DNA of 64,000 nt from Variovorax sp. UMC13 (GTDB lineage: Bacteria > Pseudomonadota > Gammaproteobacteria > Burkholderiales > Burkholderiaceae_C): the NCBI RefSeq assembly GCF_014170375.1, contig NZ_LZZW01000012.1, positions 248,001 to 312,000 of the forward strand, given 5' to 3'. The notes beneath the pieces are model-generated. The model saw only the letters and a program-made list of their open reading frames with translations, had not been told where the DNA came from and did not search any database. The position numbers were made by a program, and so were the translations under genes. This document shows positions 2,424 to 46,626 of this stretch, piece after piece. Each line of letters opens with the position of its first letter. The stretch's first letter is position 1.

Positions 2424-3350
2424 ATGACAAAGAACGGCACCGAGGAGGTCTCGCTGCAACAGCTGCGGGCGCTGGCCGCCGTCGCCGAATCGGGCAGCTT
2501 CACATTGGCCGCCGAAGCCCTGCAGCTCACGCAACCCGCCATCAGCCACCTGATCAAGCGCATGGAGGAAGAACTGGGGCAGCCGCTGGTGGTGCGGGGC
2601 CGCCGCCTCCAGCTGACCGGCGCCGGCCAGGTGATGTTCGACACCGCCTTGCGCGCGCTGCGCCTGATCGACGAATCGGTCGAGGCCTGCCGCTCGCAGT
2701 CGCAGCTGCGCGAGGGGCGGGTGGTGCTGGCGGTGGGCCACCTCACGGCGGGCGCCCTGCTGCCGCCGGTGCTGGGCCGCTTTTCCCGCCTGCATCCCAC
2801 GCTGGCAGCGACGCTGCTCGACAGCACGGCCGAGCAGATGATCTCGCGCATCCTGTCGCAGGAGGCCGACCTGGGTTTCGGCTCGGACATCGGGCAGAAG
2901 CATTCGGAACTCGCGACCGAGCCGCTGTTCACCGAGCGCATGGCCCTGTTCGTGCGCGACGACCATCCGCTGGCCCAGCGCGTGGTGGTCGATGCGAAGC
3001 ACCTGGAGCCGCTGCCCTTCATCCACGTCAACCCCGATGCCAACGTGTGGCGCGCCGTCAGCCGCCAGCTCTCGAGCGTGGCCAACGTGTACCCGCGCGT
3101 GGCCCACCATGTGTCGATGCTGTCAACCGCCTTCGGCCTGATCCAGGCGGGCGCGGGTGTGGCGCTGCTGCCGCGCTACGTGGAAGTGTTGATGCCGGGC
3201 AACCTGCGCGCCGTGGCCGTGACGCGGCCGACGCTGGAATACCCGGTGGTCGCGATCCGGCTGGCCAAGCATCCGCTGAGCCCGGCGGCGATGGCCTTCC
3301 TGGCCATGGCCCGGCAGCACATGAAGCCGCCGCGCAGCGGCAAGCCCTGA
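2424..3350 (+). CDS. LysR-family transcriptional regulator
   Basis: 308-residue LysR-type regulator. The N-terminal winged helix-turn-helix (about residues 8-68) contains FTLAAEALQLTQPAISHLIKRME, in the usual place and form, followed by the linker helix and a periplasmic-binding-protein-like effector domain (about residues 95-295). It is divergent from the Bug-GGT pair and convergent with tctA, so it most likely controls the uptake locus in response to its substrate or a metabolite (inference from arrangement). ATG 2424 gives the standard N-terminus. The palindrome immediately upstream leaves no room for a normal ribosome-binding site, so translation may be weak or leaderless. Confidence 0.93.
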   Translation: MTKNGTEEVSLQQLRALAAVAESGSFTLAAEALQLTQPAISHLIKRMEEELGQPLVVRGRRLQLTGAGQVMFDTALRALRLIDESVEACRSQSQLREGRVVLAVGHLTAGALLPPVLGRFSRLHPTLAATLLDSTAEQMISRILSQEADLGFGSDIGQKHSELATEPLFTERMALFVRDDHPLAQRVVVDAKHLEPLPFIHVNPDANVWRAVSRQLSSVANVYPRVAHHVSMLSTAFGLIQAGAGVALLPRYVEVLMPGNLRAVAVTRPTLEYPVVAIRLAKHPLSPAAMAFLAMARQHMKPPRSGKP

Positions 3351-3363
3351 GCGGCTGCCGCGC

Positions 3364-3391
3364 AAAAAAAAACGGCGCCCGAAGGCGCCGT
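3364..3391 (-). terminator. Intrinsic terminator after tctA
   Basis: Stem ACGGCGCC (3372-3379), loop CGAA, stem GGCGCCGT (3384-3391). The plus strand has a run of nine A at 3364-3372, which is a U-run on the minus-strand transcript, so it terminates tctBA. It lies in the 66-bp gap between the convergent LysR and tctA genes and may slow plus-strand readthrough as well. Confidence 0.88.
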
Positions 3392-3416: not shown

Positions 3417-4928
3417 TCAGTCCTCGACGAAGGCCTCTTCGCGCTTGGACTTCACGGCCGGCAGCAGCACGATGATCAGCAGCAGCAGCGCGGCGGCCAG
3501 CAGACCGGCGGAGATCGGACGGCTCACGAACACGCTCCAGTCGCCGCGCGACAGCAGCAGCGCACGGCGCAGGTTCTCTTCCATCATCGGGCCCAGGATG
3601 AAGCCCAGCAGCAGCGGCGCGGGTTCGCAGCCCAGCTTGAAGAAGGCGTAGCCGATGAAGCCGAAGGCGCCCACCATCCAGATGTCGAAGGTGTTGTTGT
3701 TGGTCGAGTACACGCCGATCGCGCAGAACAGCACGATGGCCGGGAACAGGTACTTGTAGGGCACCGACAGCAGCTTGATCCACATGCCGATCAGCGGCAG
3801 GTTCAGGATGATCAGCATCGCGTTGCCGATCCACATCGAGGCGATCAGGCCCCAGAACAGCTCGGGGTTGCTGGTCATGACCTGCGGACCCGGCTGGATG
3901 TTGTGGATGGTCATGGCACCGACCATCAGCGCCATCACCGCGTTGGGCGGAATGCCCAGCGTCAGCAGCGGGATGAAGGAGGTCTGGGCACCGGCGTTGT
4001 TGGCCGACTCGGGTGCGGCCACGCCGCGGATGTTGCCCTTGCCGAAGGGCACTTCGCCCGGCTTCAGCTTGGTCTTCTTCTCGATCGTGTAGGCCGCGAA
4101 AGCCGCCAGCAGCGCACCGCCGCCGGGCAGGATGCCCAGGGCCGCGCCCAGGGCCGTGCCGCGCAGCACGGCCGGGATCATGCGCTTGAAGTCTTCCTTG
4201 GTCGGGAACAGGCCGGACACCTTGGCGGTGAACACTTCGCGCTCTTCCTCGGGGCGCGACAGGTTGGCGATGATTTCGCCATAGCCGAACACGCCCATGG
4301 CGATGGCCACGAAGCCGATGCCGTCGGTCAGTTCAGGGATGTCGAAGCTGAAACGGGCCACGCCCGAGTTCACGTCGGTACCGACCAGGCCCAGCAGCAG
4401 GCCCAGCACGATCATCGCGATGGCCTTGAGCAGCGAGCCCGAAGCCAGCACCACGGCGCCGATCAGGCCCAGGATCATCAGCGAGAAGTATTCGGCCGGG
4501 CCGAACTTGAACGCGATCTCGGTCAGCGGCGGCGCGAAGGCCGCCAGGATCAGCGTGCCCACGCAACCGGCGAAGAAGGAACCCAGGCCGGCCGCGGCGA
4601 GCGCGGGACCGGCTCGGCCCTTGCGTGCCATCTGGTAGCCGTCGATCACGGTCACCACCGAGGAGGATTCGCCCGGCAGGTTGACCAGGATGGCGGTGGT
4701 CGAGCCACCGTACTGCGCGCCGTAGTAGATGCCGGCCAGCATGATCAGCGCCGACACGGGGGGCAGCGCGTAGGTGGCGGGCAGCAGCATCGCGATGGTC
4801 GCGACGGGGCCGATGCCGGGGAGCACGCCGATCAGCGTGCCGAGAATGCAACCGACCAGGCAGTACAGCAGGTTCGTGAAGGTGAACGCGACGCCGAAGC
4901 CGATCGAGAGGTTGTTTACCAGATCCAT
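3417..4928 (-). CDS. tctA: TctA, large permease subunit of a tripartite tricarboxylate transporter
   Basis: 503-residue polytopic membrane protein of the TctA family, full length (about 500). It has about a dozen hydrophobic segments and the conserved loops GTLIGVLPGIGPVATIAMLLP (shown in part; near residues 35-55), YYGAQYGGSTTAILVNLPGE-like and GTALGAALGILPGGGALLA. It couples ion flow to uptake of the substrate delivered by a Bug receptor. tctB ends 10 bases upstream, so the two are co-transcribed, and a strong terminator follows. The receptor gene is not in this operon; it lies beyond the LysR gene with opposite promoter control. Confidence 0.96.
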   Translation of the reverse strand: MDLVNNLSIGFGVAFTFTNLLYCLVGCILGTLIGVLPGIGPVATIAMLLPATYALPPVSALIMLAGIYYGAQYGGSTTAILVNLPGESSSVVTVIDGYQMARKGRAGPALAAAGLGSFFAGCVGTLILAAFAPPLTEIAFKFGPAEYFSLMILGLIGAVVLASGSLLKAIAMIVLGLLLGLVGTDVNSGVARFSFDIPELTDGIGFVAIAMGVFGYGEIIANLSRPEEEREVFTAKVSGLFPTKEDFKRMIPAVLRGTALGAALGILPGGGALLAAFAAYTIEKKTKLKPGEVPFGKGNIRGVAAPESANNAGAQTSFIPLLTLGIPPNAVMALMVGAMTIHNIQPGPQVMTSNPELFWGLIASMWIGNAMLIILNLPLIGMWIKLLSVPYKYLFPAIVLFCAIGVYSTNNNTFDIWMVGAFGFIGYAFFKLGCEPAPLLLGFILGPMMEENLRRALLLSRGDWSVFVSRPISAGLLAAALLLLIIVLLPAVKSKREEAFVED

Positions 4929-38622: not shown

Positions 38623-40086
38623 TCATGCGGCATGACCGGCCTCCTTGTTGTTGTTGTCGTCTATCGATTCGGGCTGCACGGCGGCGGCCGTCACGGCCTG
38701 CACCACCCGTTCCATGCGCATGGAGCGCGAGCCCTTGACCAGCACGCTGGCGGTCCGTGGCAGCTGTTCTCGCACCGCGGCCTGCAGCGCGTCGATGTCG
38801 GCGAAGTGCCGGCCATCGCGGCGCTGGCGCGTGTCGTCGAAGGCCGCGACGCTGTGCGCCGTGGCCTCGCCCAGCGCGAACAGCACCTCGATGCCCTGCT
38901 CGCGCGCCCAGGCACCGACCTCGGCGTGGAAGCCCTCGGATTGATCGCCCACCTCGGCCATGTCGCCCAGCACCAGCAGGCGCGGGCCGGGCAGCGCGGC
39001 CAGCACGTCGATGGCGGCGCGCACGGAGTCGGGGTTGGCGTTGTAGCTGTCGTCGATCAGCACCAGCGTGCGGCCGTCGGCCATCGGCAGTTCGAGCGCG
39101 CGCGAGCGGCCCTTGACCGGCTCGAAAGCCGCCAGGCCTTCGGCGATCTTCTCGATCGAGACACCGGTGGCCAGCGCGCAGGCCGTGGCGGCCAGCGCAT
39201 TGATCACGTTGTGGCGCCCGGCGATGCGCAGCGTCGTGTGGAAGGCGCCGAGCGGCGTGCGCACCTCGACCTGCCAGGCGCCATGCGCCCAGGTGGCGCC
39301 GCCCAGCGAGATGTCGGCATCGGGCGTGTCGCCGAAGGTCATGCAGCGGCGCGTTCCGCCTTCGCGGGCGATCTCGTTCCACAGCGGCGTGAAGTCGTCG
39401 TCGGCCGGGAACACCGCGGTGCCGTTGTCGGGCAGTGCCGAGAACACGGCCGCGTTCTCCAGCGCCACCGCCTCGACGGTGCGCATGAACTCCTGGTGCT
39501 CGCGCTGCGCGTTGTTGACCAGCGCGATGGTGGGCTTGGCGATGGCGGCCAGCCGCGCGATCTCGCCCGGGTGGTTCATGCCCAGCTCGACCACCGCCAG
39601 CTGGTGCTGCGGGCGCAGCCGCATCAGCGTGAGCGGCAGGCCGATCTCGTTGTTGAAGTTGCCGACGGTGGCGAAGGCGCGCTCGCCCGAGGCGGCCTGC
39701 ACGACCGCCGCGATCATCTGCGTGACGGTGGTCTTGCCGTTGCTGCCGGTCACGGCCACCAGCGGCAGTGCGAACTGGGCGCGCCAACCGGCCGCGACCG
39801 CGCCCAGGGCGCGCAGCGTGTCGGGCACTTCGAGGCCCGCCAGGCCGGCTTCGCGCAGGCCGCCGTGGGCGATGGCCGCGACCGCGCCGCTCGCGCGGGC
39901 GTCGGCCAGGAAAGCGTTGGCGTCGAAGCGCTCGCCCTTGAGCGCGACGAACAGGTCGCCCGGCTGCAGCGTGCGGCTGTCGGTGTGCACGCGCGCGATC
40001 GGCGTGGCGGGGTCGCCCACCAGGCGCGCCTCGGGCACCCAGGCCAGCAGTTGGCCCAGCGTCATCAGGGTGGCGCCCTGCGTCAT
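38623..40086 (-). CDS. murF: UDP-MurNAc-tripeptide--D-Ala-D-Ala ligase
   Basis: 487-residue Mur ligase attaching D-Ala-D-Ala. Motifs: DSRTLQPGDLFVALKGERFD (in part, about 36-55), P-loop VTGSNGKTTVT (about 112-122), ELGMNHPGEIA, GRHNVINALAA and DSYNANPDSV. A Gln/Asn-rich end (PESIDDNNNKEAGHAA) is the only odd piece. ATG 40086 overlaps the murE stop (ATGA). Confidence 0.97.
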   Translation of the reverse strand: MTQGATLMTLGQLLAWVPEARLVGDPATPIARVHTDSRTLQPGDLFVALKGERFDANAFLADARASGAVAAIAHGGLREAGLAGLEVPDTLRALGAVAAGWRAQFALPLVAVTGSNGKTTVTQMIAAVVQAASGERAFATVGNFNNEIGLPLTLMRLRPQHQLAVVELGMNHPGEIARLAAIAKPTIALVNNAQREHQEFMRTVEAVALENAAVFSALPDNGTAVFPADDDFTPLWNEIAREGGTRRCMTFGDTPDADISLGGATWAHGAWQVEVRTPLGAFHTTLRIAGRHNVINALAATACALATGVSIEKIAEGLAAFEPVKGRSRALELPMADGRTLVLIDDSYNANPDSVRAAIDVLAALPGPRLLVLGDMAEVGDQSEGFHAEVGAWAREQGIEVLFALGEATAHSVAAFDDTRQRRDGRHFADIDALQAAVREQLPRTASVLVKGSRSMRMERVVQAVTAAAVQPESIDDNNNKEAGHAA

Positions 40087-41585
40087 GCGGCACTCCTCGC
40101 GCTCAGCGCGTCGATCGCATGCACGCGGTCGGAGAAGGCGATGCGCTCGCCCGCGATCTCCTGCCAGGCCTCGTGGCCCTTGCCGGCGATCAGCACCACG
40201 TCTTCGGGTGCGGCCTGGGCCAGCGTGGCGGCGATGGCCGCGGCGCGGTCGGGCTCGACCTGCGCGGCTTCGGGCCGCGACAGGCCCAGCAGGATCTGGC
40301 TCAGGATGGCAGCCGGCTTCTCGCTGCGCGGGTTGTCGCTGGTCAGCACCACGCGGTCGGCCTGGCGCTCGGCCACGGCGGCCATCATCGGCCGCTTGGT
40401 CGCATCGCGGTCGCCGCCGCAGCCGAACACGCACCAGAGCTTGCCGCCGCGCTGCGCGGCCAGCGGCTGCAGCCCGGCCAGCGCCTTGTCGAGCGCATCG
40501 GGCGTGTGGGCGTAGTCGACCACCGCCAGCGGCCGGCCCGGCAGCGCGATGCGCTCCATGCGGCCGGGCACGCTGTGCAGGCCGCGGCAGGCGTCGACCG
40601 CCTCGGCCAGCGTCATGCCCAGCGCGCGCAGCGCACCGATCACGCCCAGCAGGTTGGCCACGTTGTACTGGCCGATGAGTTGCGTGGCGAGCGACTGCGG
40701 TGCCGCGCCCTGCTCGACCACCTCGAAGGACAGGCCTTCGGCGCCGTGATGGATGTTCTGAGCCATCAGCCGCGCGGCACCGCCGTCGGCGGAGGTGGTC
40801 CAGATGTCGAGCGCGCCGGTGCCGCGGTCGATCAGCTGGGCCACCAGGCTCGCGCCGTGCAGGTCGTCGATGTTGACCACCGCCGCGCCCAGGCCCGGCC
40901 AGCGGAACAGCTCGGCCTTGGCTTCCCAGTAGGCGTCCATGTCGCCGTGGTAGTCGAGGTGGTCCTGCGTGAAATTGGTGAACACCGCGACGCGGATCTC
41001 GCAGCCGTCGAGGCGGCGCTCGGCGATGCCGATCGACGAGGCCTCGATGGCACAGGCGCTGAAGCCGCGCGCCACGAAGCCGCGCAGCTCGCGCTGCAGC
41101 ATCACCGGGTCGGGCGTGGTCAGGCCGGTGTGGACCATGTCGGGCGGCACGCCGATGCCCAGCGTGCCGACCAGCGCGCAGGGCCCCTGGCCGGGGCGCT
41201 GCGACAGCGCCTCGGCCAGCCACCAGGCGGTCGAGGTCTTGCCGTTGGTGCCGGTGACGGCGATCAGCGGGATCTGGCTCGAGGGCTGGCCGTAGAAGGA
41301 GGAAGCGATCGGGCCGGTGGCGGCCTTGAGGCCGGCGAAGGACGCGATGCCCTCGTGTTCGAAGCCGAAGGCCTCGACGCCCTCGCGCTCGACCAGGCAG
41401 GCCACCGCGCCCTGCGCCAGCGCCGCGGCCACGTGGGCGCGGCCGTCGGTGGCGGCGCCGGGCCAGGCGATGAAGGCATCTCCGTCGCCCACGCGGCGGC
41501 TGTCGGCATGCAGGTCGCCCGGCACGCACGAACGCAGCCAGTGCGCGGCTTCGTTGGGGCTGGAAAGAAGGATGTCGTCGTCCAT
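40083..41585 (-). CDS. murE: UDP-MurNAc-L-Ala-D-Glu--meso-diaminopimelate ligase
   Basis: 500-residue Mur ligase. P-loop VTGTNGKTST (110-119), the first-domain motif DSRRVGDGDAFIA, DYAHTPDALDKAL and the specificity motif TSDNPRSEKP: DNPR marks meso-diaminopimelate as the substrate, giving A1-gamma peptidoglycan. It fits with dapF in this window, which supplies meso-DAP. The start shares one base with the ftsI stop (TAATG). Confidence 0.97.
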   Translation of the reverse strand: MDDDILLSSPNEAAHWLRSCVPGDLHADSRRVGDGDAFIAWPGAATDGRAHVAAALAQGAVACLVEREGVEAFGFEHEGIASFAGLKAATGPIASSFYGQPSSQIPLIAVTGTNGKTSTAWWLAEALSQRPGQGPCALVGTLGIGVPPDMVHTGLTTPDPVMLQRELRGFVARGFSACAIEASSIGIAERRLDGCEIRVAVFTNFTQDHLDYHGDMDAYWEAKAELFRWPGLGAAVVNIDDLHGASLVAQLIDRGTGALDIWTTSADGGAARLMAQNIHHGAEGLSFEVVEQGAAPQSLATQLIGQYNVANLLGVIGALRALGMTLAEAVDACRGLHSVPGRMERIALPGRPLAVVDYAHTPDALDKALAGLQPLAAQRGGKLWCVFGCGGDRDATKRPMMAAVAERQADRVVLTSDNPRSEKPAAILSQILLGLSRPEAAQVEPDRAAAIAATLAQAAPEDVVLIAGKGHEAWQEIAGERIAFSDRVHAIDALSARSAA

Positions 41586-43339
41586 TAGAAACTCTCGTCG
41601 ACGCCCTTGGTCAGGACCAGCGGCTTCACGGCCAGGTCGGGTGCCACATTCATCATGCGCAGCGTCTGCTGCACCACTTCGCTGAACACCGGGGCGGCGG
41701 CGATGCCGCCGAAGTAGCGGCCGTCGCCGGGCTCGTCGATCATCACGCCGACGATGATGCGCGGCGTCTCGATCGGCGCCATGCCGGTGAACCAGGCGCG
41801 GTACTTGTTGCTGGCGTAGCCCTTGCCGACCTGCTTGTGCGCGGTGCCGGACTTGCCGCCGACGGAATAGCCCACGGTCTGCGCCAGCTGGCCGGTGCCG
41901 CCAGGGCCCGCGGCCATCTGCAGCATCTTGCGCACCGCGTGCGCGTTCTCGGCCGAGAACACGCGCACGCCGACGGCCGGCTCCGAACTCTTGAGCATGG
42001 TCACCGGGATGATGCTGCCGTCGTGCGCGAAGGAGGTGTACGAATGTGCCATCTGAAACAGCGAGGCCGACAGGCCGTAGCCGTAGGCCATGGTGGCCTG
42101 CTCGACCGGCTTCCAGTTCTTCCAGGGCCGCAGCCGGCCCGTGACGGCGCCGGGGAACTGGATCTGCGGCTTCTGGCCGTAGCCGAGGGCGGTGTAGGTG
42201 TCCCACATCTCGTGGGGCGTCATCTTCTGCGCGATCTTGAGCGCACCGACGTTGCTGGACTTCTGGATCACACCCTCGACCGTCAGCGCGCCGTAGTTGT
42301 GCGTGTCGCTGATGGTGAAGCCGCCGATCTGGTAGCGGCCGGGGGCGGTGTCGATGATGGTCGACGGCTTGACGCGGCCGGCCTCGAGCGCCATGCCCAC
42401 GGTGATCGGCTTCATGGTCGAGCCGGGCTCGAAGGTGTCGGTGATGGCGCGGTTGCGCAGCTGTTCGCCGGTCAGGTTCTGGCGCTTGTCGGGCACATAG
42501 CTCGGGTAGTTGGCCAGCGCCAGCACCTCGCCGGTGATGGCATCGAGCACCACCACGCTGCCGGCCTTGGCCTTGCGCGCGATCACCGCGTCGCGCAGCT
42601 TCTGGTAGGCGAAGAACTGCACCTTGCTGTCGACGCTGAGCTGGATGTCCTTGCCGTCGAGCGGCGGCACGGTCTCGCCCACGCCCTCGACCACGCGGCC
42701 CAGCCGGTCCTTGATCACGCGGCGCGAGCCGGCCTTGCCGGCCAGCTCCTTGTCGAAGGCCAGTTCGATGCCTTCCTGGCCGTGGTCTTCCACGTTGGTG
42801 AAGCCGACCACGTGCGCGGCGGCCTCGCCTTCGGGGTACTGGCGCTTGTATTCCTTGCGCTGGTAGATGCCCTTGAGGTTGAGGTCGGCGATCTGCTTGG
42901 CGATGGGCGCATCGACCTGGCGCTGGATCCAGACGAAGGTCTTGTCCTCGTCCTCGAGCTTCTTGTCGAAATCCTTCTGCGCCATGCCCAGCAGCTTGGC
43001 CACCTGCCTGAGCTTGGCGCGCACCTCGGGGTCGTTGCGCTCCACGTCTTCCGGGATGGCCCAGATGCTGGGCGCGACCACGCTCGACGCGAGCAGCAGG
43101 CCGTTGCGGTCGAGAATGCGGCCGCGGTTGGCCGGGAGCTCGAGCGTGCGCGCGAAGCGCACCTCGCCCTGGCGCTGGAAGAAGTCGTTGCCGATCACCT
43201 GCACGTAGGTGGCGCGGGCGGCCAGCACCACGAAGCCGAGCGCGATCGCGGCCACGATGAACTTGCTGCGCCAGACCGGCGTCTTGCTCGCGAGCAAGGG
43301 GCTGGTCGTGTACTGGACGCTGCGGCTGTTGCGGGCCAT
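41585..43339 (-). CDS. ftsI: Septal transpeptidase FtsI (PBP3)
   Basis: 584-residue class B penicillin-binding protein. A basic cytoplasmic tail and one membrane span (about 27-46), the pedestal domain (RGRILDRNGLLLA, about 72-84) and the transpeptidase domain with STMK (Ser307-Lys310), SSN in QKSSNVG and KSGT in VGGKSGTAHK. It cross-links septal peptidoglycan with FtsW. Full length. Overlaps by one base with both ftsL (TGATG) and murE. Confidence 0.97.
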   Translation of the reverse strand: MARNSRSVQYTTSPLLASKTPVWRSKFIVAAIALGFVVLAARATYVQVIGNDFFQRQGEVRFARTLELPANRGRILDRNGLLLASSVVAPSIWAIPEDVERNDPEVRAKLRQVAKLLGMAQKDFDKKLEDEDKTFVWIQRQVDAPIAKQIADLNLKGIYQRKEYKRQYPEGEAAAHVVGFTNVEDHGQEGIELAFDKELAGKAGSRRVIKDRLGRVVEGVGETVPPLDGKDIQLSVDSKVQFFAYQKLRDAVIARKAKAGSVVVLDAITGEVLALANYPSYVPDKRQNLTGEQLRNRAITDTFEPGSTMKPITVGMALEAGRVKPSTIIDTAPGRYQIGGFTISDTHNYGALTVEGVIQKSSNVGALKIAQKMTPHEMWDTYTALGYGQKPQIQFPGAVTGRLRPWKNWKPVEQATMAYGYGLSASLFQMAHSYTSFAHDGSIIPVTMLKSSEPAVGVRVFSAENAHAVRKMLQMAAGPGGTGQLAQTVGYSVGGKSGTAHKQVGKGYASNKYRAWFTGMAPIETPRIIVGVMIDEPGDGRYFGGIAAAPVFSEVVQQTLRMMNVAPDLAVKPLVLTKGVDESF

Positions 43340-43665
43340 CAGCCGCCCCTTCGCGCCGGTGCCGGCGCCGGTGGGGGCGCCGGGATCGGCGGGATCACCG
43401 TGCCGTCGGGACGCACGTACTGCGTGATCGCCGGCGTGGTGGTGCGCATCTTGAGCTGCTCCTTGGCCAGCTTCTCGACCCGCAGCGGCGTGGCCTGGGC
43501 CCGCTTCTCGACCTGCAGCCGGTCGCCGTCGACCTCGAGCCGGCGCGCCTCGGTGTTGGCGCGGTCGAGCTCGGTGAACAGCAGGCGCGAGCGGTACTGC
43601 GTGTGCACGAGGAACAGCGCGGTCGCCATCACGGCCATCAGCAGGAGCACGTTGAGCCGCGCCAT
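43339..43665 (-). CDS. ftsL: Cell division protein FtsL
   Basis: 108-residue bitopic protein: one membrane span (about 4-22) and a leucine-zipper-like coiled coil (about 30-75) as in the FtsQLB complex. The C-terminal tail is unusually proline-rich (PPIPAPPPAPAPARRGG). It is one base from rsmH and overlaps ftsI. Identification rests on position, size and topology, since FtsL sequences diverge strongly. Confidence 0.92.
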   Translation of the reverse strand: MARLNVLLLMAVMATALFLVHTQYRSRLLFTELDRANTEARRLEVDGDRLQVEKRAQATPLRVEKLAKEQLKMRTTTPAITQYVRPDGTVIPPIPAPPPAPAPARRGG

Positions 43666-43666
43666 G

Positions 43667-44605
43667 TCAGGCCTCGGTGCGTTCGGCGATCCGCAGGATC
43701 GCGCTGCGCGAGCGCGGGTTGCCCGCCACCTCGGCCGCCGACGGCCGCACCCGGCCCAGCGCGCGCAGCTTCATCACCTTGGGCGCCGCGAAGGGCGCGC
43801 GGCGGTCGTAGACCTCCTTCGAGTGGGTCGCGATGAACTGCTTGACGATGCGGTCTTCCAGCGAATGGAAGGCGATCACCGCCAGCCGCCCGCCGGGTTC
43901 GAGCACCGAGAGGCTGGCCTCTAGCGCTTGTTGCAGCTCTTCAAGCTCGGCGTTGATGAAAATCCGAAGAGCCTGAAATGTGCGCGTTGCAGGGTTCTGG
44001 CCCTGCTCGCGGGTTTTGACCGCGCCAGCCACGAGCTCGGCCAGCTCGGTGGTGGTTGAAATTGGGCCCCGTTCTTGTCGGCGAGCATCAATCGCCTTTG
44101 CAATCTGAACAGCAAACCGTTCTTCGCCATAGTCACGAATCACCTCTGCAATCTGCTGAGTTTCGGCCGTCGCCAGCCAGTCGGCCACGCTTTCGCCGCG
44201 CGTGGTGTCCATGCGCATGTCGAGCGGGCCGTCGAAACGAAAAGAAAAACCCCGTGCGGGGTTGTCGATCTGCGGAGAGCTGATGCCCAAATCCATGAGC
44301 AAGCCGGTCACGCTGCGCGGCGGCAGCTCCCCCAGATCCTTGAAACCCTGGTGCCGGATCGAAAAACGCGCATCGGTGATGCGCGCTGCTTCGGCCACCG
44401 CTTCCGCGTCCTTGTCGAACGCGATGAGCCGGCCCTCCGGCGCCAGTTTTTCCAGCAGCCGCCGGGTGTGCCCCCCGCGGCCGAAGGTGGCATCCACGAA
44501 GGTGCCACCGAGTGCGTCCGGCCGGTCGGCGGTCAGTGCGTCGACCGCTTCATCCAGCAAGACGGTGGTGTGGGTCCATGAAGTGTCCAAGGCGGTACTC
44601 GTCAT
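43667..44605 (-). CDS. rsmH: 16S rRNA m4C1402 methyltransferase RsmH (MraW)
   Basis: 312-residue SAM methyltransferase for N4-methylation of C1402 in 16S rRNA. Motifs: [13 protein letters not shown] (about 12-24), [12 protein letters not shown] (SAM loop, about 37-48), [19 protein letters not shown] (in part, about 108-126), and [13 protein letters not shown]. Full length. Two things are odd: GFSFR is encoded by GGT TTT TCT TTT, rare codons here that create a terminator-like hairpin, and 43921-44160 has about 57% GC by hand count against about 70% around it. ATG 44605 shares a base with the mraZ stop. Confidence 0.96.
44238..44263 (-). terminator. Terminator-like hairpin with U-run inside rsmH
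   Basis: Minus-strand reading: AACCCC-GCAC-GGGGTT followed by TTTCTTTTCG. The 6-bp stem with a tetraloop (44248-44263) and U-rich tract lie in the coding sequence of rsmH, second gene of the dcw operon. It has the form of a factor-independent terminator on the transcribed strand. Translating ribosomes would normally mask it; uncoupling could cut off downstream transcription. Whether it works is untested. Confidence 0.5.
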
Positions 44606-45036
44606 CAGAAGGCGAGGTCCTGGAAGGACTCCGAAGCGAGACCGGCCTGGATGGCTTCGGCCTCCTTGGCATCGTGCGTGGCCTTGTCCCACAGCTCGAA
44701 GTGGCTGCCCATGCCCAGCAGCAGCGCGTCGCGCGAGATGTTGGCCGCGGCACGCAGCTCGGGCGACACCAGCACGCGGCCGGTGCCGTCCATGTCGACG
44801 TCCATCGCGTTGCCCAGGAACAGGCGCTTGAGCCACTGGTCCTTGAGCGACATCGCGGCGATGCGTTCGCGGAACTGCTCCCAGGCGGGGCGCGGAAAGA
44901 CCATCAGGCAGCCGTGCGGGTGACGTGTGATCGTGAGTTGACCGCCGGCCGTTGCGGCCAGCACGTCACGATGCCGGGTCGGCACGGAAAGGCGACCCTT
45001 GGCATCCAGACTCAGCGATGAAGCGCCTTGAAACAC
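44605..45036 (-). CDS. mraZ: MraZ, transcriptional regulator of the dcw cluster
   Basis: 143-residue AbrB-fold protein with two SpoVT/AbrB-like halves: [20 protein letters not shown] (in part, about 2-20) and [18 protein letters not shown] (about 78-95). In E. coli MraZ represses its own operon by binding TGGG-N6-type repeats. I choose GTG 45036, which gives the family's usual start VFQGASS and lies 57 bases after the repeat operator; ATG 45105 would put coding sequence over that operator. ACAAGGG lies about 10 bases ahead of the GTG. It is the first gene of the cluster. Confidence 0.94.
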
Positions 45037-45092
45037 GGCCACGAAACCCTTGTGATGGGACAGCGCGGGCACCTCGACGAGGTACAAACCGA

Positions 45093-45126
45093 CACTTTTT
45101 CCCACTTAACTGCACTTTTTTCCACT
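45093..45126 (-). promoter_or_regulatory. Four 10-bp-spaced AGTG repeats, candidate MraZ operator
   Basis: On the minus strand the motif AGTG occurs four times at exactly 10-bp spacing: AGTGGAAAAA, AGTGCAGTTA, AGTGGGAAAA, AGTGTCGGTT (plus-strand CACT at 45123, 45113, 45103 and 45093). E. coli MraZ binds TGGGN units repeated every 10 bp upstream of mraZ; the third unit here fits best (TGGGA). The site is 57 bp upstream of the mraZ GTG. A TTGCTG at 45136-45131 could be the -35 element, but no good -10 pairs with it. Confidence 0.75.
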
Positions 45127-45194
45127 GTAGCAGCAAAGTTCAGGCGTGCAATCAGGCGTCGCGAGTATTTTTTGTAATGGAATCAACGACTTAG

Positions 45195-45222
45195 CGCGGT
45201 TTCCGAACCTTCGGAAACCGCG
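45195..45222. terminator. 13-bp perfect stem-loop between hslU and mraZ
   Basis: CGCGGTTTCCGAA (45195-45207), CC, TTCGGAAACCGCG (45210-45222). It is about 75 bases past the hslU stop on the minus strand. There is no U-run after it, so it may be a Rho-assisted terminator or 3'-end stabiliser for hslVU, isolating that operon from mraZ. The 261-bp gap 45037-45297 otherwise contains only the AGTG repeats. Confidence 0.5.
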
Positions 45223-45297
45223 AATTCCGTTGCAAATGAAGCACTTAGCTCACGCAGTGAATGTGTTGCGTGAAGCCATGCGCCGTCGCGGCCCGCC

Positions 45298-46626
45298 TCA
45301 AAGGATGAAACGCGACAGGTCTTCGTCGTGACTTAGTGCCGCCAGCCGCTGATCGACGTAGGCCGCGTCGATGCGCACGGTCTGCCCCGACAGCTTGGCA
45401 GCGTCGAAGCTGATCTCGTCGAGCAGGCGCTCCATCACCGTCGACAGCCGGCGTGCACCGATGTTCTCGGTGCGCTCGTTGACCTCGAAGGCGATGCTCG
45501 CCAGCCGCGTGATGCCCTCGGGCGCGAAGTCGATGGTCACGCCTTCGGTGGCCAGCAGGGCCTGGTACTGCTTGACCAGCGAGGCGCGGGTCTGCGTGAG
45601 GATGGCCTCGAAGTCGGCCACCGAGAGCGACTGCAGCTCGACGCGGATCGGGAAGCGGCCCTGCAGCTCGGGGATCAGGTCGCTGGGCTTGCTCACGTGG
45701 AAGGCGCCGCTGGCGATGAACAGGATGTGGTCGGTGCGCACCACGCCGTACTTGGTGCTCACGGCCGTGCCCTCGACCAGCGGCAGCAGGTCGCGCTGCA
45801 CGCCCTGGCGCGACACGTCGCTGCCCTGGGCCTCGGCGCGGGTCGCGACCTTGTCGATCTCGTCGATGAACACGATGCCATTCTGCTCGGCGTTGGCAAT
45901 CGCCTGCGCGCGGATCTCTTCCTCGTTGACCAGCTTGCCGGCCTCCTCGTCGATCAGGAGGCGCATCGCCTCGGCGATCTTGAGCTTGCGCGTCTTGCGC
46001 TGCCCGCCCCCCATCTGGCCGAACATGCCGCGCAACTGCTCGGTCATCTCCTCCATGCCGGCTGGGCCCATGATTTCGAGCGGCGTGCGGGTTTCGGCCA
46101 GATCGAGTTCGATCTCCTTGTCGTCGAGTTCGTGCTCGCGCAGCTTCTTGCGGAAGGCCTGGCGGGTGGGGTTGGGCGCGTCCAGGGCGGTGGCGCCACC
46201 GTCGGCACCGCGCGCCGGCGGCAGCAGCACGTCGAGGATGCGCTCTTCGGCCGCGTCCTCGGCGCGCATGCGCACCTTGGTGCTTTCCTTCTCGCGCGTC
46301 TGCTTGACGGCGATCTCGGCCAGGTCGCGGATGATCGCGTCGACGTCCTTGCCGACGTAGCCGACCTCGGTGAACTTGGTGGCCTCGACCTTGATGAAGG
46401 GCGCATCGGCCAGGCGGGCCAGGCGGCGCGCGATCTCGGTCTTGCCGACGCCGGTCGGGCCGATCATCAGGATGTTCTTGGGCGTGATCTCGTGGCGCAG
46501 CGCGCCCTCGACCTGCTGGCGGCGCCAGCGGTTGCGCAGCGCGATGGCCACGGCGCGCTTGGCGTCCGGCTGGCCGACGATGTGGTTGTCGAGTTCGGAG
46601 ACGATCTCCTGCGGGGTCATGGACAT
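45298..46626 (-). CDS. hslU: ATP-dependent protease ATPase subunit HslU
   Basis: 442-residue Clp/AAA+ unfoldase that feeds HslV. Walker A GPTGVGKT (56-63), an I-domain (about 110-235) with an acidic [18 protein letters not shown] region, Walker [12 protein letters not shown], sensor IASGAFH and the C-terminal tail DLSRFIL that docks into HslV. Standard length. ATG 46626 (or the ATG two codons later) is one base from hslV's stop. Confidence 0.97.

Follow-up and report, generated by a model that had tools for sequence, protein, structure and literature searches.

A conserved reading frame nested within rsmH, and a terminator-like hairpin upstream of it, in Variovorax and related bacteria

Genes lying inside other genes are deemed rare anomalies in bacteria and are dropped by many annotation tools, as set out in PMC12350097. 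Described same-strand cases include rpmH, nested in rnpA of Thermus (Feltens et al. 2003, cited in PMC9841429), and comS, in srfA of Bacillus (PMC12350097). The reading frame that we describe here in rsmH resembles the former in being a gene for a small protein fully contained in another gene, on the same strand and in another frame; as described in PMC9841429, however, rpmH and rnpA start one nucleotide apart and share an initiation site, whereas the nested start in rsmH is internal, at codon 157, and the rpmH product is ribosomal protein L34, whereas the product nested in rsmH is without a family assignment. With comS, a same-sense, out-of-frame small gene within a long gene, the likeness is one of arrangement, the host gene being a different one (PMC12350097). 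In E. coli, PIRT-Seq yielded 125 nested candidates, 116 of them on the same strand and 98 of those in the +1 frame; the candidates derive from translation fusions, some possibly reflecting frameshifts according to the authors, and the terms rsmH and mraW are absent from the main text of that paper (PMC12350097). Transcription ending within coding regions, the counterpart of a terminator-like hairpin that we also find in rsmH, has been described from mapped RNA 3' ends (PMC7815308; PMC8297930), whereas both the hairpin and the nested frame treated here are known from sequence alone. Among the literature matches listed, a coverage outside which most subscription journals fall, there was no report of a nested gene in rsmH/mraW.

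The window analysed is a stretch of 64,000 nucleotides from Variovorax sp. UMC13. The start of rsmH at ATG 44605 is our choice from the frame, and the true start of mraZ probably lies further inside its ORF, since the TIGR00242 match starts at residue 25.

44605–45105, minus strand: mraZ ORF, upstream of rsmH (TIGR00242, E 3.6e-31, above cut-off)
43667–44605, minus strand: rsmH (mraW), 16S rRNA (cytosine1402-N4)-methyltransferase, 312 aa (PF01795, E 1.1e-92; TIGR00006, E 1.1e-92)
43339–43665, minus strand: ftsL, next gene downstream of rsmH (TIGR02209, E 1.1e-19, above cut-off)
41585–43339, minus strand: ftsI-like transpeptidase (NF011685, FtsI, E 3.5e-133, under the model cut-off; a PBP2 PenA model scores higher)
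38623–41529: murF-containing ORF, 968 aa (NCBIfam; best MurF match from residue 516, bifunctional MurE/MurF model from residue 505)

The initial annotation had assigned rsmH to second place in a 20-kb operon comprising all later division and cell-wall genes. The position behind mraZ and ahead of ftsL, the ftsI-like gene and the murF-containing ORF stands, the gene order having been covered with NCBIfam models that far. The first half of the 968-aa ORF probably runs out of frame over murE.

Within rsmH, the +1 frame is open between a start and a stop codon that both lie inside the gene, with the following features.

43921–44136, minus strand: nested ORF in the +1 frame of rsmH, GTG start, 71 codons, TAG at 43923–43921 (from the ORF list, frozen synonymous sites and frame selection tests)
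43921–44130, minus strand: the same ORF from an inner ATG, 69 codons, the sole start in many relatives (from the start-codon survey)
44139–44147, minus strand: Shine-Dalgarno (SD)-like AGAGGTGAT, ending 2 nt before the GTG, with its GAGG 6 nt before (from the sequence and relatives)
44140–44142, minus strand: TGA closing the nested frame two codons before the GTG (from the sequence; kept in 91/97 congeneric and 95/114 other intact rows)

Both nested starts rest on codon choices that are silent in rsmH, CGT against other Arg codons and TAT against TAC, and the nested TAG is created by CTA at Leu codon 228, a codon that makes up a rough 3% of Leu codons in three neighbouring ORFs. In many relatives GGAGGTGAT replaces the SD-like AGAGGTGAT of the window. 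Among 107 open, similar frames from beyond the genus, L114 and L176 lack both start codons; the other 105 have at least one (both in 36, GTG only in 21, ATG only in 48). When 10 records of the window's own genus are included the four classes number 46, 21, 48 and 2 (Fisher p = 1.4e-4, uncorrected for relatedness), and from this pattern the two starts appear to back each other up. The nested start is seen to shift between GTG and the inner ATG in relatives (rsmH codons 157–159); in one genus that uses only the ATG (g29, see below), 18 of 20 copies are rich in purines where the GTG used to be (GAG in 10, GGG in 6, AGG in 2), possibly forming a new SD.

Across 100 congeneric copies, the synonymous diversity of rsmH codons 158–227 is 0.028, as against 0.165–0.392 in seven other segments tested, and the reduction of synonymous variation in the host frame is confined to the overlap. 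A codon alignment of 96 of these copies (three cut loci and L082 were left out) shows many rare AT-ending codons between 157 and 228 to be identical in all 96, among them CGT157, TAT159, TTT164, GCT165, GTT166, GCA169 and ATT172; this conservation stops at codon 228, whose CTA forms the nested TAG. We relate the freezing of codons 158–227 to the 71-codon ORF that occupies the +1 frame of the same strand. Such sites as do vary in the block are mostly first positions of rsmH codons, which are wobble positions of the nested frame.

Two contrasts were used to separate the demands of the two frames, with Fisher tests that ignore relatedness. Contrast (1) considers variants that are silent in rsmH but change the nested protein, seen against possible. 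Counting variants found in at least two copies within the genus, 9 of 147 were seen in the block, as against 91/143 in the upstream control (p about 1e-27) and 96/144 in the downstream control (p about 1e-29). Contrast (2) takes the variants that change RsmH and compares those without effect on the nested protein with those that change it too: in the block of the genus set these were seen in 11/130 and 2/290 cases, respectively (p = 8e-5), with 22/149 and 24/293 upstream (p = 0.047) and 26/150 and 44/281 downstream (p = 0.68). One of the 10 possible changes to a nested stop was scored as seen in the genus block, in 12 copies with GCA at codon 173; in these the nested codon reads CAG owing to a second change, and none of the complete congeneric frames is interrupted.

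Outside the genus the block remains unusually well preserved. In 53 rows, codon identity to the window at columns with the same residue is 0.889 (2781/3127) in the block and 0.42–0.72 in eight other segments, and in the nearest other genera the block is 93–97% identical beside flanks of about 71–86%. A wider set of 63 rows, which includes 10 records of the window's own genus, gave 47/149 in the block for contrast (1) against 110/139 and 107/145 in the controls; for contrast (2) the block reached p = 0.02 and the upstream control p = 0.006, so that this contrast does not discriminate there. Pooling 51 more distant intact rows gave a weaker depletion in contrast (1), with 102/139 in the block against 129/142 (p = 1.5e-4) and 125/145 (p = 0.008) in the controls; for contrast (2) the block reached p = 0.004, and neither control was significant (0.53 and 0.83).

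Three other genera of the same GTDB-style family (g29, g12 and g32) were compared separately, counting a variant if seen once and leaving out L319–L321, which are second or weak matches of their genomes. In g29 the ORF is open with the ATG in all 20 copies, contrast (1) gave 46/143 against 76/128 and 88/142 (p = 1e-5 and 5e-7), and contrast (2) was significant in the block (p = 0.004) and in neither control. In g12 the ORF is likewise open with the ATG in 17 of 17 copies (69 codons in 11, 65 in 6) and contrast (1) gave 53/141 against 76/130 and 73/133 (p = 7e-4 and 5e-3); contrast (2) was not significant in these 17 copies (p = 0.17). The third genus, g32, sampled as the best-scoring 30 of 41 genomes with a match, has ORF lengths of 73 codons in 21 copies, 37 in 4, 121 in 2, 13 in 2 and 69 in 1, and keeps the inner ATG in 21 of these 30. 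Here contrast (1) showed no depletion (101/149 against 90/128 and 89/127; p = 0.7), so that g32 serves as a natural negative control for that measure, and contrast (2) gave p = 0.03 despite the decaying ORF. Selection on the nested amino acids is accordingly visible in the genus, in g29 and in the 51 distant rows; it did not reach significance in g12 and was not specific in the 63-row set. The decay of the ORF inside the single genus g32 (L193, L277–L305) offers a chance to date the loss and to look for compensation.

The range of the nested ORF was surveyed with a rule for intactness that combines length, start and N-terminal similarity. By this rule, which is looser than an earlier strict-motif label that had put open frames (e.g. 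L122, L140, L188 and L203) among 32 non-intact rows, 97 of 100 congeneric loci have an intact ORF and the remaining three are cut by contig or stretch ends; beyond the genus 104 of 130 rows qualify, as do 56 of the 80 loci L101–L180, four of which are Variovorax. Genera that carry it include Limnohabitans, Ramlibacter, Rubrivivax, Burkholderia, Massilia, Janthinobacterium, Bordetella and Methylobacillus; it is broken in Comamonas (2/2), Polynucleobacter (2/2), the gammaproteobacteria among the 80 loci and others, and one gammaproteobacterial locus (L174) has a long but dissimilar frame. Given these losses in Comamonas, Polynucleobacter and others, the nested ORF is not required everywhere. A class-wide profile search with matches in 137 of 323 genomes was not counted as presence, many of the listed matches having in-frame stops; we think that these matches reflect the conserved protein of rsmH itself read out of frame.

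The predicted nested product has 71 residues and a pI of about 12. Residues L8 and L9 are the same in all of 68 diverse sequences, and K5, N6, G7, R11, L12, Q13, R15, L16, S35, W36, S40, F54, G58, F59 and S61 nearly so. Part of this conservation follows from the RsmH protein itself: when 13 rsmH copies were recoded synonymously, a mean of 3.9–6.8 of 18 N-terminal residues still matched, compared with 14–18 observed, in a comparison based on a rule that needs no start codon. Since 5–64% of the recoded frames of these 13 copies stay open, the openness of a frame in GC-rich DNA is by itself weak evidence. Two candidate clues to function were rejected: the strong basic charge arises from the frame itself, with recoded window frames averaging +19.4 and 211 intact real ones having a median of +13, and helix amphipathy did not go beyond shuffles in any of six sequences. 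The nested protein gave no match to Pfam, NCBIfam or PHROGs models and none by tblastn in plasmids; a PDB profile search returned one match at chance level (E 0.52), and the AlphaFold model is poor (pLDDT 62.6, pTM 0.25). As a guess, weakly held, the product might be a small protein that associates with RNA or the ribosome, with a supply linked to the division and cell-wall operon.

About 100 nt upstream of the nested ORF, and outside it, lies the element on which the initial annotation had focused.

44238–44263, minus strand: terminator-like hairpin (44263–44248) with T-run (44247–44238) in rsmH codons 115–123 (from the sequence and a strict scan)

The stem-loop AACCCC-GCAC-GGGGTT is found at 44263–44248 and is followed at 44247–44238 by TTTCTTTTCG, exactly where it had been placed; a GC-rich stem directly before a T-run is the structure expected of an intrinsic terminator. 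It is encoded by AAC CCC GCA CGG GGT TTT TCT TTT CGT, corresponding to RsmH N115–R123 (NPARGFSFR). The remark that these codons are unusual for the genome is borne out by three neighbouring ORFs of the cluster, in which TTT makes up 5% of Phe and GGT 14% of Gly codons and TCT is absent, although these figures are rough because only the MurF half of ORF 38623–41529 matches a real product. A loose terminator scan showed no enrichment, with 11 sites in 20 kb against 9.5 (sd 3.0) in shuffles. Under a strict criterion (a perfect stem of at least 6 pairs, at least 4 of them G-C, a loop of 3–8 and at least 8 T in 10), which was chosen after the rsmH site had been seen, both strands of the 64 kb hold two sites, the rsmH hairpin and an intergenic one at 3372–3391, and 60 dinucleotide shuffles hold none. 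By this rarity the rsmH hairpin is a good terminator-like sequence for a GC-rich stretch, in an odd place. Folded alone, the 55-nt piece is unremarkable (z -0.67; 48 of 200 shuffles equally good); a single fold of 44150–44350, a region entirely upstream of the nested block, has z -3.24 and retains the hairpin.

Among the 100 congeneric rsmH loci two forms can be told apart by a rule of our own: form A, with the hairpin and T-run, in 42 loci including the nearest relatives, and form B, with an AGY serine codon and no hairpin (mostly CCG..CGC GGY TTC AGT TTT), in 52, the remaining 6 having neither. The initial annotation had held that absence of the codon pattern from sister species would count against it, and by this comparison the pattern is present in them. 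The loop codon varies among the 42 A copies (GCA, GCG, GTA, GCC, GTT, GCT, GAG, GTC), the stem and T-run codons being kept. Of 130 rows outside the genus, 13 fit a loose A pattern and 8 have a perfect stem of 6 pairs followed by the T-run. On a tree of 97 of the 100 congeneric copies, inferred with the hairpin stretch and nested block excluded and with 5 of the 97 rows unlabelled, the A and B labels require two changes, B forming a 49-row clade and a separate pair and A spreading over the remaining branches. In the 48 non-B copies, a set selected partly via codon 121, itself one of the tested codons, synonymous diversity at the stem and T-run codons is 0.140 against an average of 0.309, and 8.9% of 192 control windows are equally low. 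The hairpin would accordingly be under moderate constraint, kept in many relatives and lost in half of the genus; because 52 of 100 congeners carry the AGY-serine form, it is dispensable. That the nested gene depends on the hairpin was rejected, as among the 52 congeneric copies lacking the hairpin 51 retain all 71 codons of the ORF and one is a truncated locus. At codons 121–123 (44237–44245) both haplotypes mostly retain codons ending in A or T (AGT or TCT, TTT, CGT), the hairpin being present in one only.

The frozen block could in principle be explained by something other than a second protein. It might be a nucleic-acid element, such as an embedded small RNA, a structured RNA or a DNA site, since any constraint at the level of the sequence lowers synonymous diversity and contrast (2), clear in the genus set and g29, is not so in g12; we regard this as improbable, as the edges of the block coincide with SD, start and stop, its variable sites are mostly nested wobble positions and the start codons complement each other. 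Contrast (2) within the genus likewise argues for a nested protein over a mere nucleic-acid element. Neither strand gives more than a weak consensus fold for 101 diverse rows (-8.0 and -3.6 kcal/mol over about 300 nt), and an Rfam search of 42500–46000 found no match at the block, its sole match (43073–43154, other strand, E 1.9) being at chance level. SD-like sequences are able to promote frameshifting, as in prfB. A programmed +1 frameshift near codon 156, fusing the N-terminal part of RsmH to the nested sequence, would draw on such a sequence and on a fitting direction of shift, yet the conserved TGA two codons before the GTG speaks against a fusion, leaving almost no room to shift, and the nested start codons are kept, which makes this reading very improbable. 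Hardly credible, finally, is that the block has no second function and owes its conservation to recombination or local codon habits; its codon use is indeed odd for the genome, but the block stands out from its flanks in the nearest other genera, and the depletion is found again in g29 and g12 but not in g32, the genus with a decaying ORF.

For the hairpin, whose reading as an intragenic intrinsic terminator is plausible from its structure, the initial annotation had gone further and suggested an attenuator linked to translation. The hairpin and T-run would then be a working terminator: the leading ribosome would keep it from acting, and a lag in translation would set it free and so attenuate the dcw cluster as a whole. 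We rate this as a tentative possibility, on the doubtful side. It would accord with the rarity of the hairpin under the strict scan, its retention with a variable loop in congeners and the perfect stem in some rows outside the genus, and intragenic 3' ends that change under a translation inhibitor have been reported elsewhere (PMC8297930; PMC7815308); against it stand the many congeners from which the hairpin is missing, the modest conservation and a stem of only 6 pairs, and no leader peptide, competing fold or regulator came to notice in the course of these comparisons.

With regard to the block, the comparison shows a conserved nested ORF with start and stop signals, under a constraint that favours the nested reading at the expense of synonymous freedom in rsmH. 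It is probable, on this comparative evidence, that rsmH encodes two proteins and that the nested ORF is a conserved overlapping gene, predicted to be translated. Ribosomes on the dcw mRNA would read RsmH in frame 0, and some would initiate inside rsmH, using the SD AGAGGTGAT with GTG 44136 or the inner ATG 44130; these would read a basic protein of 69–71 residues in the +1 frame and end at TAG 43921. The hairpin at 44238–44263 would be a separate element, a candidate terminator cutting off the nested gene and all that lies downstream when ribosomes lag. As a speculation that is more doubtful than not, the overlapping gene may be old, present in an ancestor of the Burkholderiales or of the betaproteobacteria and repeatedly lost since; its microprotein, constrained more tightly than the rRNA methyltransferase that it overlaps, might couple ribosome maturation to the division and cell-wall operon, and in part of Variovorax it might be gated with the rest of the operon by a translation-sensitive terminator 100 nt upstream. 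A nested gene that has persisted in many genera, within a core gene of the division cluster and with almost no synonymous change, would make a clear case from the sequence by itself and would be notable among same-strand nested genes for breadth and constraint. Mutants and synonymous recodings of rsmH in these bacteria may affect two genes.

Two further sites attracted our attention. A second conserved patch of AT-ending codons lies at rsmH codons 64–82 (44360–44416), where GAA68, GCA73, GAT78, CGT80 and TTT81 occur in at least 90 of 96 congeneric copies; in B-type copies the 7-codon window at codon 70 has a diversity of 0.005, and identity outside the genus is only 0.62. The intergenic hairpin at 3372–3391 is a strong terminator-like structure with a run of nine T, situated downstream of the minus-strand ORF 3417–4928 and facing the plus-strand ORF 2424–3350.
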